From Odiellus spinosus (lineage: Eukaryota > Arthropoda > Arachnida > Opiliones > Phalangiidae), in the NCBI GenBank assembly GCA_963920705.1, contig OY987227.1:9155602-9219601 (forward strand): a stretch of DNA of 64,000 bases, read 5' to 3'. This document shows positions 2,742-13,902 of the stretch, piece after piece. The number at the start of each line of letters is the position of its first letter. Within the stretch, counting starts at the first letter, position 1. Both the position numbers and the translations under genes were made by a program. A model generated the notes under the pieces. It was not told the DNA's origin. It saw nothing but the letters and a program-made list of their open reading frames with translations, and did not search any database.

Positions 2742-5700
2742 GGAGGATTCAAGCTGGAACTGCTGGATGCCGAGGAAAATCACCTACTCGACTTGACGCC
2801 TACCACCGTCACAGCCAAATACATTGGACAAGAAGATAGCACGTAAGTCTATGGTAGCATGGCGCTCTCTTCCTATATCCTGAAATTATTCGCTCGGAAA
2901 CCCCCGCGCAGTCGTATAATTTAAAATCACGCACCTCAAATAAGCCTAACCTTGAAAAAAAAAAATACTTTTCGTTTGGAATCTTCTTCTTTTTGATAGT
3001 GAAAGTTGGAGAAAGTTTTATTTTAATTTCATATTTAAAAGTAAAATTAGTATTTCGGATTCAGCGTGTTTATCGCGCTGGAATGCGATTTAGAAATGCA
3101 ATTTAAATTTAAAAAATTATATCTCAGAAGTGGTTCAGTAAACTCAATCAATGGTTGAGTCTGACTTTGAAATTGATATTGTATTTTTGTCGGTGAACAG
3201 TGTTTGACAGAGAAGAGAAATGATGTTTTCGACACTGATTCCAATTTGTTTACCAGCACTATTTGCCGTTAGAGGACGCTTATAAACGCCATGTTTCGTT
3301 ATTCATCTTTATCTATTAAGATAGGTCTCCGTTGTTAATAGTTTATCTTGGTGAAAGCTTTATGGTGCCGAAACCAGGAGCCAAAACGTTCATGCTACCT
3401 TCCTGCGTAAAATATATTATTTAAAATGACGTCTATCGGACGAAACATTTATTTTAGTTCTCGTTTATGGCAAAATAGTGGAACGAGCGCGGTTTTTGGC
3501 ATTTTGAAGTTATTCGCCAATTTAGTTTTAAGAAAATACGGGTTTTGAAATCTATAAATACGGAGTCTCTTAACCCAAATTTCTCGGCGAGTTGGAAATC
3601 GGTGGGCCGACCAAATAAATGAAAGGGGGGAAAAAAGGTATTCTTTTCTAAAACAAATCACGCCTTTGGAGTTTTAAGGGCGATATTGAACGGATAGAGG
3701 GAAAAGTGGGTAAAACGAATTGGTTCTTATCCATTTTCGTGCGCCCAAATCCTTTTAAATAAGAGGGTATTTTTTTTTCTTTTATTTTTCGGCCAAATAA
3801 AATAAAGGTGTTGTCCTTTCGCTAATCCGTTCGCTTTTTAATAATGACCTCCATTAACAGTAAGCCAAGGACCATATTCGCTTAAAACGTCAAAATTATT
3901 AGGAACCAAACCTTTCTTTCTCAAAATTATTAAAGGTATAATGAAAACTAGAAACGTGATGTTTTATCAAGAACGAATTGAAGCCACGTAAGAACCTTGA
4001 AGGAGACTACTTCGTTCAGCGTCCTCGGATCTTCACCTACTTTCTAGCAAAACGTTTTCTGCTTATTTATTGGCCCCTCCTAAACACTGCCCACTTAGAT
4101 CAGCTCTTCCGTTGATCTAAGTTGAACGTGTAGTGAGGCGGGCCAATAAATAAACACACGCCCTTTTACCTGAGGCTAATAATGTATCTCTTTTGGTCTT
4201 CAATTAAAAGCAGAACCTCTGACTAATCATAAAACGCCTCACCTTTGGCTTAGTAAAATCCCTGCGACACTCTCTTTGAATCGCGCTAAATCTCGAGGCT
4301 CTTGGTTATTTTCACGCGAGCAAATGTGCGTATTACAGCGCGTGTCGCGGATATTTTATGAAATCAAAGGTGCGGAGTCTTTTGATTAGTCGGAGGTTCT
4401 CCTTTAAATTGAATTAACCCAAATCAGAATCTTTTTCAGTGCTTTTTTGCACAATTCAGAGACATTTACATGATGTTTTAACTCGGGAACATGTCTTATT
4501 TTTAATAATAGAGTCGGTTTAAAGGGAAAGTAAAATCATTAAAAAAATGTTTTGGAAAAAATATTTAATTTAAAACATCAGAAGCCGATGAGTTTCATCG
4601 GCTTCTGAAAACATTTATATATCGATACACGATTAATTTTGGGAAAAAAATCTATAAAATAAGCCTTGGCCAATTAACCCTCCTGTAATGTATATACCTT
4701 ATTAACCACATTGGCTTTTCTCTCGTCCGCTGTCTACGCGAAGGAATTTGATTGAGGATATAATTTTCAAATAGCCATATGCATAGGCTTATGCAGTTTG
4801 GGAAACGAATTTAATATACCCCCCCCCCTCCCCCCGGCATAGTGAGTCGATCGTGAAAGGTTCTGATGGCGGCCACCGAAGTTAAAATGTAAACGTAGAT
4901 AGTAGGGTATAGTGAAATTCTTGTTTAATGATAGTGATAAAGAAAAGCTGGTGGCGCGCGCGCAGATTTGGCCCCACTGAAACTAGGTCTAAGTCTACAC
5001 CATTTCATCAAAAAAATGGTAAAAAGTGGGAGGTTTTTCGCCCTTGAGCGCATAGCCAGTCTTTGCTGGAAAGGTATATTACGAAAGTGAAGGACTTTCT
5101 CTATTCGCGTTCGAGAGGAGTTGGCGCCAACTACTTTCTTCACTATGATGTTTATCATTTTGTATCAATCCGCCCTACTTTCCAAAGTAGGGTAATTGAA
5201 GAAAACTATCGTCGAAATCATTTGGAATGTTCAGCTCGTACAAGCGAGTCTTCCAAGTATCTCAGCGATACGTTTTGATTGGTTTATTTGAGTTATACAC
5301 TATCCTAAATTTTTTTACGCAGTGAAAATTCAATTTTTCGTTCTCTCGGTAATTCTAGCGGACTACAACAACTGGTTTCTCCAAAAACTAAATAATAATA
5401 CTTAACTATACGGATAATTTTATCATATCTTAAAAAATATTACATTCTAGAGGAATTATCTTTTCGGAAATATTTCCAAATGGTATTTCTTCGTAAATGA
5501 CCGCGACATATACGATGTAAAAACACACCTTAAGGGTGCATTCTGTCTAGATATTTTTATAGGTTCTTTGAAAAACCTTCATTCCAAGTCTAATTATCTT
5601 TATTATTAACGTGACGTCATAATCTAAAAACAAAAGTATAATTTAACTTTTCCGTTCCCTGCAACGGAAAAAAGTTTAAATTCCAAGATAATTTCGCAAG

Positions 5701-11700: not shown

Positions 11701-13902
11701 ATGCGTCAATGCTTGTCCTGGTAAGTTACTACTATTTATCCAAGTAGTATTTTTAATCGGGTTTTTCTATCGGTTTAAAGAAAATATTCACCGATTTTTT
11801 AGGCGAAAAAGGTTCCGCCGAACCAGAACCCCATCCTCACTCCAAAGGAGAACCGGAACCCCATCCCAAAGGAGAGCCAGAGCCTCATCCGAAAGCGGAA
11901 CCCGAACCAGATAGCCTGTCTTATTGCAAAGGAGAGTTCAAACATCCCAACGGTTGCTTCGGCACCGCTTGCGTTTACATGGCCCATTGGGAATTTGTCG
12001 ATAAGTACGACGCTATCAAGTTTACCATCAGTTCCAGTAACTTTAACAAATGGACAGGCATCGGGTTCTCGAAGAACAAAGCCATGGTCGAGACTGACGC
12101 TATCCTGGGTTGGGTAGATGAGAACGGAAGACCATTTATCATGGATACGTAAGTCTTTTTCCACGTTTCTTTTAAAATAAAATATATCCATCCCCCAACC
12201 AAGAAAGTGTTATGACCTTCCATTATAGTTGGTTGCAAAGCTACTCGGCGCCCATTCTGGACACGGCCCAAAACATTGTAAATCGTACCGGTAAAAAGGA
12301 GGACGGTATCACGACCTTGTCGTTCGTTCGCAAACGCAACACCAACGACTTCACCGGAGATTTGCAATTTACCGACGCCGAATGTCTATACTTGGTTTAC
12401 CCGATTAAGGGAGGCGTTTTCAACGCCGTCAATAAGAAAATTCGAAAACACGAATCGACTCCCATGGTCTCCGAAGAGAAAATCTGCATTAGAAGTTGCC
12501 TTCCTAAAGGTAAGTTTCATTCGTAAGTTGTAAATCTTAAACATTAAGACTGAATGGATTCCATCGTAGAAGCTGTTCACGCACCAGAACCGGAACCATC
12601 TCCCGGGGTTCCCGTTTCCGAACCACCGTCGGTCGAAACAACGCCATCGATCAGACGTTACACTACGATTCCGACCAAAACGAGACCAGCTCCGACTACG
12701 ACCACGACGACCGTTCTTCCTCTTTTACCCGAAGCCGAGTTCCAAGTCAGGTTAAAGTTGGCCAAAGTCAAGGAATCGTCCGAAACGCCCAGAGATTACC
12801 AGAAGATCAGGAAAAAGCTAGCCGAAGACGTCAACGCAGCTCTTAGTCAATTAGAAGGATACAAGGGCATAAGGGGTATAGAATTGACTAGGCCCGCCAA
12901 AGATCCCAATACGGTCTTCGCCAACATCAACATTGTCATGATCGAATCGGACATTCCGGTAAAAGATGCTCGCGAACTCGATCTTGCCAATCAACAAATG
13001 GAAACTCTAATCAAGGACACGCTCAATGATACCGTGGGATCCGGAAAAATCGGAAACATTCAAGTAGATCCCGGATATCTTGTCGTTTCGTCCATTTCCG
13101 GAAACGAAGGACTTTCGAACGAAATACCCATCGATGATGGTAAGTTAAAATTTTAAACGCGTATAGATAATTGACGCCTCTTTTCATTGGTTGTTAACCT
13201 TTTAGAAGTAAAAGTCTCTGGATTAACGGATGAACAAATAAAAATTTACATTATAATTGGAGGAGTTTGCGCCCTGGGTTTGTTAGTTTTAATTCAAGCC
13301 AGCTGCATGTTACATCGGGACCGCGCCATTCGCAAAAACGTCGTTAAAAACGTAAGTTGTCTAGGACAATACTTTATAAATTTTCTAAGTTTTTGTAATG
13401 CTAAATGTTTCAGGAGAAATTAATTGCCAATTCTCACTGGAAAGACTATTCTGCGACAGCCAGTAGCAACTATAGCTACGAAAACTTCGCCATGAGGGAC
13501 GAGGAAGGTAAACCGAGTAAACACTCGGTTAGTTCCGTTCCAAACGGTAACGGCTCTGCCAAAGCCGTATCAAACGGAGCCGCGGAACCCGGAAACCATA
13601 CGAATGGAAAAAGCAACGGTCACAAGGGGCACCATCATCATGGTCGCCCCATGCCTCCCTTAAACGGATATCCTCCTAGCGCCACTTTCGAAAGAGGGTC
13701 CAAGAGAAGTGACGGAATGTCAAATTTTTCGGGTTATTCTAACGCGTATGCCACCCACGATAGGTCAGCTCGCGCCGGTAGGAAACCCGAGTTGGAACTA
13801 ACGCCGGATTTTTATTTCATGCCTCACCAACGACGTTATTCCGGCGAAGTTGTTAGAGTTTATGTCGATTACAACAACCCTGAGTTCGCTAATAACAAAT
13901 AA
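2742..13902 (+). CDS. LPMO-like/EGF/DOMON x3/SEA-like single-pass membrane protein (5' partial)
   Basis: Exons with mutually consistent phases: 2742-2842, 7689-7822, 8319-8417, 8522-8644, 8949-9040, 9114-10605, 10736-10939, 11018-11214, 11304-11365, 11446-11720, 11803-12148, 12229-12509, 12570-13139, 13206-13351, 13414-13902. They give 1536 visible residues ending in TAA, with AATAAA at 13919. Residues 1-78 resemble the C-terminal part of an LPMO_10/chitin-binding type-4 domain (CKECTLRL then [10 protein letters not shown]). EGF-like modules are at about 79-111 and 111-152. DOMON 1 starts near 153 (LTLYWKI, ALGWRP), is interrupted by a Glu-Pro-rich stretch (about 249-584), and resumes near 616 ([24 protein letters not shown]). 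DOMON 2 is about 749-927 and DOMON 3 about 955-1136. A Pro/Thr linker and SEA-like region follow (about 1136-1326), then a membrane helix (about 1338-1361) and a Ser/Asn/His-rich tail. Inferred role: an extracellular redox or carbohydrate-binding receptor. The signal peptide and any copper-binding N-terminal histidine are not visible. Confidence 0.85.
4579..4607. mobile_element. Family A ends-only remnant (29 bp, TSD AAAACAT)
   Basis: A 13-base left end (CAGAAGCCGATGA) is joined through one G to a 15-base right end (TTTCATCGGCTTCTG). It is flanked by AAAACAT at 4572-4578 and 4608-4614, the 7-bp duplication typical of family A. All internal sequence (about 300 bp in other copies) is missing, yet both extreme ends and the duplication are perfect. 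Confidence 0.88.
6097..6501. mobile_element. Family D palindromic MITE, copy 1 (TTAA target)
   Basis: The termini are AGGGAGAATGCAACC on the left and a diverged reverse complement on the right (GGTTGAATTCTCCCT), bracketed by TTAA at 6093-6096 and 6502-6505. The two arms are complementary over most of the 405 bp. Matching blocks include GCTTAGCGGGATTCATGGAG near 6231 and its complement near 6345. TTAA targets are typical of piggyBac- and Kolobok-type transposases. No coding capacity. Confidence 0.9.
9307..10314 (+). repeat. Glu-Pro coding repeat with 39-bp units
   Basis: Inside the 1492-bp exon, an irregular [12 protein letters not shown] region grades into a regular 13-residue, 39-bp repeat (pattern [13 protein letters not shown]). 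Eight near-identical units carrying TGEPHHP lie at roughly 9945-10260. Repeats at the 3' end are nearly identical in DNA, while those at the 5' end vary at synonymous sites. This suggests recent expansion at the 3' side. The reading frame is preserved throughout. Confidence 0.95.

Follow-up and report, generated by a model that had tools for sequence, protein, structure and literature searches.

A predicted membrane-anchored protein of Odiellus spinosus joining a putative copper-brace module to haem-type DOMON domains

A 17-exon gene in one reading frame

We analysed a 64,000-nucleotide stretch of the 443-Mb genome of the harvestman Odiellus spinosus (contig OY987227.1; G000:C3:9155602-9219601), hereafter the window; positions refer to the window, and negative positions lie upstream of it. 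On the + strand at 2742-13902, an initial annotation had placed the parts of a membrane protein that joins a module resembling lytic polysaccharide monooxygenases (LPMOs) to two EGF modules, three DOMON domains, a SEA-like region, and a membrane helix. We rebuilt this gene as 17 exons, 15 of them within 2742-13902 and two added from DNA further 5' (stretches L009 and L011) that were absent from the earlier gene model. The gene encoding these parts proved to be real and larger than described, so that the earlier observation was correct and understated. All 16 introns of the gene are GT-AG, and the joined coding sequence of 4854 bases reads in a single frame as 1617 residues and a stop codon, its only stop being the terminal one; the alternative frames contain 55 and 132 stops. 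With every exon joined in a single frame across these 16 introns, the exons are unlikely to come from separate genes. In order, the chain would comprise a signal peptide, the LPMO-like module (residues 28-160), two EGF modules, a linker-split DOMON 1, DOMON 2, a short His/Glu/Pro linker, DOMON 3, a Thr/Pro linker, the SEA-like region (1271-1390), the helix, and a tail to residue 1617. The features are as follows.

-22369 to -22198 (G000:C3:9133232-9133403; outside the window), + strand: exon 1, likely signal peptide, with His28 as predicted mature position 1
-32 to 38 (window part 1..38), + strand: exon 2, residues 58-81, with the second brace histidine His80 (codon 33-35)
2742..2842, + strand: exon 3, LPMO-like module, residues 82-114, within the LPMO_10 profile match
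7689..7822, + strand: exon 4, end of the LPMO-like module, with CxxC (Cys129, Cys132), putative axial Phe149, and Cys152
8319..8417, + strand: exon 5, first EGF-like module (Pfam EGF_2 and EGF_Teneurin above cut-off)
8522..8644, + strand: exon 6, second EGF-like module, the best stretch (Pfam EGF_2)
8949..9250, + strand: exon 7 (8949-9040) and the start of exon 8 (from 9114), first half of DOMON 1
9312..10391, + strand: Glu/Pro/His-rich linker within DOMON 1, residues 331-690
10392..10939, + strand: second half of DOMON 1, in the remainder of exon 8 (to 10605) and in exon 9 (10736-10939), with Met700 and His815 or His790
11018..11720, + strand: exons 10-12, DOMON 2 (Pfam DOMON 94.9 bits, alignments), with Met895 and His990
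11803..12509, + strand: exons 13-14, His/Glu/Pro linker and DOMON 3 (Pfam DOMON 101.1 bits, alignments), with Met1102 and His1197
12731..13090, + strand: SEA-like region in exon 15 (12570-13139), from a Pfam SEA score of 13.6 bits, below cut-off, and a model
13206..13351, + strand: exon 16, membrane helix, residues about 1416-1443, by hydropathy
13414..13902, + strand: exon 17, predicted cytoplasmic tail and stop codon

Exon 1 lies 22.2 kb 5' of exon 2 and encodes MDKPLRNTFITLCLLFMCSQLVKRVES followed by HVALTFPPAR. It was chosen by eye out of the open-frame list after a motif script had overlooked it, and because the LPMO_10 match begins only at module residue 30, its assignment rests on the BIM1-like match, the bacterial alignments, the phase, and the donor site. 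Exon 2 is bounded by the acceptor TTTCAG before -32 and the donor GTAAGT at 39; its last 38 bases, including the codon of the second brace histidine, lie inside the window and had been overlooked. Further downstream, the acceptor before 8949 (ACGAAG) is weak. The C-terminal half of an LPMO-like fold, which had been assigned to the first two visible exons, lies within the LPMO_10 match of the completed module, and these exons are exons 3 and 4. A protein search of the genome with the module returned four places, namely exons 1-4 of this gene, and a search with the DOMON 1-2 region returned seven, all inside the gene. Since these searches scored the best candidates only, the gene is single copy within their reach; further DOMON genes are present elsewhere in the genome.

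A putative copper brace and haem-type DOMON domains

Exon 1 reads VES|HVALTF, with a histidine directly after the likely signal peptide when the cleavage site is placed by eye (-3/-1 rule). A histidine at this point was what the initial annotation had anticipated, and His28 was found there, accompanied by a second brace histidine, His80, and a candidate axial residue, Phe149 (residues are numbered on the precursor). His80 aligns with a histidine present in 45 of 45 bacterial domains (see below) and with His91 of the AA15 enzyme TdAA15A (5MSZ), which is described as a copper ligand. By alignment, Phe149 would take the axial role, since it stands at the column of the axial tyrosine (Tyr in all 45 bacterial domains). 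Bacterial AA10 LPMOs have Phe at the axial position. The only cysteines of the module are 53, 129, 132, and 152.

We then scored the module against known families. Against Pfam LPMO_10 (cut-off 23 bits), the 78 residues first annotated plus 12 of exon 2 gave 22.1 bits (E 2.6e-4, 90 residues), and the completed 134-residue module gave the expected match at 31.1 bits, covering module residues 30-128 and only positions 83-183 of the 183 in the profile. The top score among the profiles searched came from NCBIfam SCE4755 (NF043005; 40.4 bits, E 2.9e-10, residues 19-128), below its cut-off of 75, and BIM1-like_dom reached 25.6 bits over module residues 1-131 against a cut-off of 27; membership of either family was rejected on these scores. 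A sequence search of the PDB with the module returned only TdAA15A (E 0.012, module residues 35-109). The second brace histidine and the CxxC stretch align with AA15, and the C-terminal motif is similar by eye. AA15 proteins, however, have ten conserved cysteines (PMC5823890), an HGRL-type start, and about 195-201 residues, whereas the module has four cysteines, no such start, and about 130 residues, and we rejected AA15 membership on these three grounds. Filing the module under a known LPMO family thus did not hold up, and it is neither an AA15 member nor a proven LPMO.

The SCE4755 family, known from myxobacteria and held by 40 of the 282 genomes in our phylum sample (39 above cut-off), allowed a closer comparison. 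Bacterial domains were taken from 13 myxobacterial loci and 30 loci of the phylum sample, and 45 non-redundant ones were compared. All 45 have His1, Pro-Cys-Gly, the second His, both CxxC cysteines, the axial Tyr, and the last Cys; the animal module retains every one of these features except the axial Tyr, which is replaced by Phe. A His lay within three residues of the expected start in 41 of 49 domains; one domain was dropped, and in seven (7 of 48 before duplicate removal) the start was re-set to a nearby His following Ala, Gly, or Ser, so that His1 is a matter of choice in these seven and the His1 count as a whole is partly so. A profile built from 12 bacterial domains gave 29.8 bits with the animal module, compared with 16.9 and 15.7 bits (best domain) for two incomplete AA15 domains of the same genome.

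A bacterial member modelled with 12 sequences reached a pLDDT of 84.5, and its first 15 PDB matches were all LPMO-type (AA15 first, then AA10, AA13, AA11, and AA9/GH61), with E-values from 3.4e-5 to 5.3e-3 (below 0.001 in nine of the 15) and TM-scores by query of 0.41-0.60; X325 was absent among the 50 matches listed. Both bacterial members scanned passed the BIM1-like cut-off (37.6 and 29.9 bits), and one of them also passed that of LPMO_10. On the profile scores, the alignments, the matches of the bacterial model, and the BIM1-like and LPMO_10 scores of the bacterial members, the module is best placed between LPMOs and BIM1-like copper proteins.

Searched with the animal module, plasmids gave no tblastn match, and an initial scan of bacterial genomes recovered no relatives; a motif aimed at X325 in the PDB returned noise only. 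A PF20238 search of the harvestman genome was without a match, and its control was equally silent, making the result uninformative. Reading by eye the open frames that surround four bacterial loci yielded no clear clue, and no paper on SCE4755 was found in the literature searched. By reading, the bacterial proteins seemingly consist of one domain, a low-complexity stretch, and a tail resembling a surface-sorting signal. At the Nannocystis loci (L034-L038), SCE4755 genes occur as neighbouring pairs whose products end in Cys- and Arg-rich tails like surface-sorting signals.

All three DOMON domains scored above the Pfam cut-off of 32.7 bits, at 61.5 (DOMON 1, linker left out), 94.9 (DOMON 2), and 101.1 bits (DOMON 3). 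The three domains are thus present as annotated, but the layout needed amending in that a repeat linker interrupts DOMON 1. This linker has 360 residues, among them 99 Pro, 88 Glu, and 33 His with 14 His-His pairs, and includes a tandem repeat of a 39-bp unit (12.3 copies, 9818-10298); we infer that its His pairs could buffer metal.

Checking the DOMON domains for haem ligands, as the initial annotation had proposed, we observed that each of the three retains a Met and a His. At the aligned position of Met700, Met895, and Met1102, four DOMON domains of the same genome that we read as Skeletor-type also have Met; a DBH-like DOMON of this genome has Ile at that position, and the sequence used for it does not include the His region. 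The His of the Skeletor-type domains is matched by His990 and His1197, and the alignment of DOMON 1 favours His815, with His790 as the alternative. The Met-His spacing is 95 in DOMON 2 and DOMON 3 and 115 or 90 in DOMON 1. In CG8399, the reported pair is Met286/His379, at a distance of 93, with the motif SXDXXMGXD around the Met, and such a pair is described as marking haem-binding DOMON domains and as missing in DBH and sugar-binding ones (PMC10691727). DOMON 2 reads SKDDRMAGSD, one residue more than this motif. A PDB profile search with the three DOMON domains returned no match.

The two EGF modules were borne out by EGF_2 at 29.2 bits (cut-off 22.1), with two stretches in the piece scanned, and the membrane helix by its hydropathy, which peaks at 2.55 (19-residue window) and exceeds 1.6 nowhere else in the protein. 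The SEA-like region fared less clearly. With 13.6 bits against a Pfam cut-off of 26.4, SEA was rejected as an established call, and the model of the region was of low confidence (pLDDT 48.8), but its strands and helices follow the SEA-like order b-a-b-b-a-b. In a Foldseek search with this model, MUC16 SEA5 came first of 1049 matches (E 4.4e-3; none below 0.001), with unrelated ferredoxin-like folds close behind. This poor model and weak first match suggest that the region is likely a SEA domain. The predicted cytoplasmic tail closes on a run rich in tyrosine (13790-13900), which may serve as a signalling motif.

Possible functions of the anchored chain

The gene sequence itself shows the single-frame architecture, the residues of the brace, a Met/His pair in each DOMON domain, and the helix that spans the membrane; we infer cleavage of the signal peptide, occupancy by metal and haem, the path of the electrons, and the substrate. 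On this basis we favour, at a rough probability of 0.36, a type I membrane protein of the animal cell surface in which a brace module, EGF modules, haem-type DOMON domains, and a SEA-like stalk serve haem-fed copper oxidation. The N-terminal module would adopt an LPMO fold and bind copper in a histidine brace formed by His28 with its free amino end, His80, and axial Phe149, and the EGF modules and three haem-type DOMON domains would hold this brace outward above the SEA-like stalk. The b-haems of the DOMON domains may accept single electrons from an outside donor, either ascorbate or a membrane cytochrome b561, and hand them to the brace copper, which, once reduced, would carry out localised oxidation of a matrix polysaccharide such as chitin. 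The flexible His-rich linkers would give reach and may buffer copper. Both the electron transfer and the polysaccharide oxidation are put forward here as hypotheses.

The closest precedent for such a relay is fungal cellobiose dehydrogenase (AA8-AA3), whose DOMON-type haem b is reported to reduce LPMO copper directly (PMC4507011). There, haem domain and copper brace sit on separate secreted proteins; the animal protein has its copper module on the same chain, gave no match to a flavin dehydrogenase in the pieces scanned, and by analogy could perform the same transfer without a partner. Knickkopf/Skeletor and the CYBDOM proteins (FRRS1/CG8399) also have DOMON domains with Met and His (for Skeletor-type, those of this genome), and CYBDOM proteins, unlike the animal protein, carry a cytochrome b561 membrane domain. 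To our knowledge, neither group includes a copper-brace module, and we know of no single-chain haem-to-brace system in animals; our literature search found none either, nor any account of what an LPMO_10/DOMON/EGF protein does or of its brace and haem ligands.

The architecture itself may not be new, because a sentence published in 2019 mentions a branch that diverges earlier than the known LPMO families and has the same three Pfam domains, LPMO_10, DOMON, and EGF; its wording does not state outright that they share a chain and names no protein, organism, brace residue, haem ligand, SEA domain, or helix (PMC6950343). The architecture may thus have been glimpsed before, with the full ligand set new within the literature searched. 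The gene gives this early branch a concrete, complete example and ties it to the bacterial SCE4755 family. With both modules on one anchored animal chain and all expected ligands kept, it would also permit a direct test of haem-driven copper oxidation or reduction at the cell surface.

Several observations weigh against haem-fed copper oxidation. The likely signal peptide carries Lys-Arg close to its predicted cleavage site, and its hydropathy stays at or below 1.6 in every 19-residue window. At about 130 residues the module is small, so it may lack the flat face with which larger LPMOs bind. Apart from LPMO_10, the profiles closest to it are SCE4755 and the BIM1-like domain, which is linked to copper acquisition; for several X325/Bim1 members, polysaccharide cleavage is reported as not detected. 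Residues fixed in 45 of 45 bacterial domains are altered in the animal (Lys to Thr49, Arg to Lys85, Leu to Thr105, Asp to Lys107, and Met to Ala140), as are near-fixed ones (Glu, 44 of 45, to Leu76; Gln, 44 of 45, to Arg135; Gln, 40 of 45, to Arg138). The Met/His pair also occurs in Skeletor-type DOMON domains, which may or may not hold haem. Finally, a Pfam scan of four pieces of the chain, from which exon 1 and the linker repeat were left out, gave no flavin dehydrogenase or cytochrome b561 match up to an E of 1.

A matrix receptor or adhesin without enzymatic activity is a serious but doubtful alternative. Its LPMO-like module and DOMON domains would bind glycans, and the SEA-like stalk and tail would tie the cell to the matrix or cuticle. 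EGF and SEA domains with mucin-like linkers are typical of adhesion proteins; the altered residues of the module point the same way. Three membrane-bound DOMON proteins are reported to rise after coral settlement (PMC3204972), and the DOMON protein Knickkopf to bind chitin and aid its organisation (PMC11354708). A pure adhesin, however, would have no need of the complete brace and the three Met/His pairs that this protein retains.

Surface copper handling akin to that of the fungal BIM1/X325 proteins is likewise a serious alternative but strikes us as unlikely. Here DOMON haem would reduce Cu(II) in the brace to Cu(I) for a Ctr1-type importer, and the His-His repeats would collect copper. Such a role would fit the BIM1-like match over module residues 1-131, the two bacterial relatives that pass the BIM1-like cut-off, and the 14 His-His pairs of the linker. 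Like the fungal proteins, the animal chain would have a histidine brace, a small LPMO-like fold, and a membrane anchor, which in BIM1 is glycosylphosphatidylinositol (PMC10952591) and here a helix with DOMON and EGF domains attached, and a plant DOMON/b561 protein has been proposed to give electrons to ferric or cupric acceptors (PMC10784544). Yet the BIM1-like score falls just under the family cut-off, while that of LPMO_10 is higher and over its own; X325 has a further copper-ligating Asp, which we did not locate here; and two acidic residues of the bacterial domains (Glu in 44 of 45, Asp in 45 of 45) are Leu and Lys in the animal. Many modules of the protein are also not known from importers, and no partner of a copper importer is known to us that combines EGF and SEA domains with a set of three DOMON domains.

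It is very improbable that the LPMO-like exons form a separate upstream gene joined to the rest only by reading: the first four exons are parted by introns of 22.2, 2.7, and 4.8 kb, exon 1 was picked by eye, the acceptor at 8948 is weak, and the joins were read from DNA alone, but phases and splice sites agree at every join, exon 4 joins the EGF exon through a split codon across a 496-base intron, and LPMO_10 and DOMON/EGF sequences are mentioned in one branch, albeit with a single chain unclear (PMC6950343).

The outcome may be polysaccharide oxidation, copper reduction and import, or none of these. A broader form of haem-fed copper chemistry, in which haem relay and copper brace on one tethered animal chain make a self-contained surface redox enzyme with two metal cofactors and a copper-buffering His-His linker, whose task would be either to oxidise polysaccharide of the animal's own matrix or to reduce copper and gather it, seems to us rather unlikely.

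Neighbouring genes and repeats

On the same contig, nine exon-level LPMO_10 matches lie above the cut-off, at 6.19, 7.01-7.05, and 14.09 Mb (L001-L008), and an AA15 start exon, HGRLIEPPSRSSMWRFGF, adjoins two of them (L001 and L006). These loci look like clusters of ordinary AA15 genes.

Within the window, we tentatively take the exons at 15952-16957 (- strand) to be those of a Fizzy-related/Cdc20 gene, with UTP11 presumably at 21066-22022 (- strand), ORC1 at 22786-26005 (+ strand), KDM4 at 27484-33546 (+ strand), and an oligoribonuclease at 38104-39146 (- strand), each from how its exons read. On the - strand, an open frame of 754 codons at 18456-20717 resembles a LINE reverse transcriptase.

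NPPLKSTT...FHIALLSVWVKF is among the translations of a dispersed repeat that occurs in the window at about 85-420 and 63324-63764, and again at about -7600 to -7180 (L009) and in L004 and L008, two loci that overlap. Further upstream, between 39.6 and 37.9 kb from the window (L012), lies a long satellite of short units that is open in several frames on both strands.

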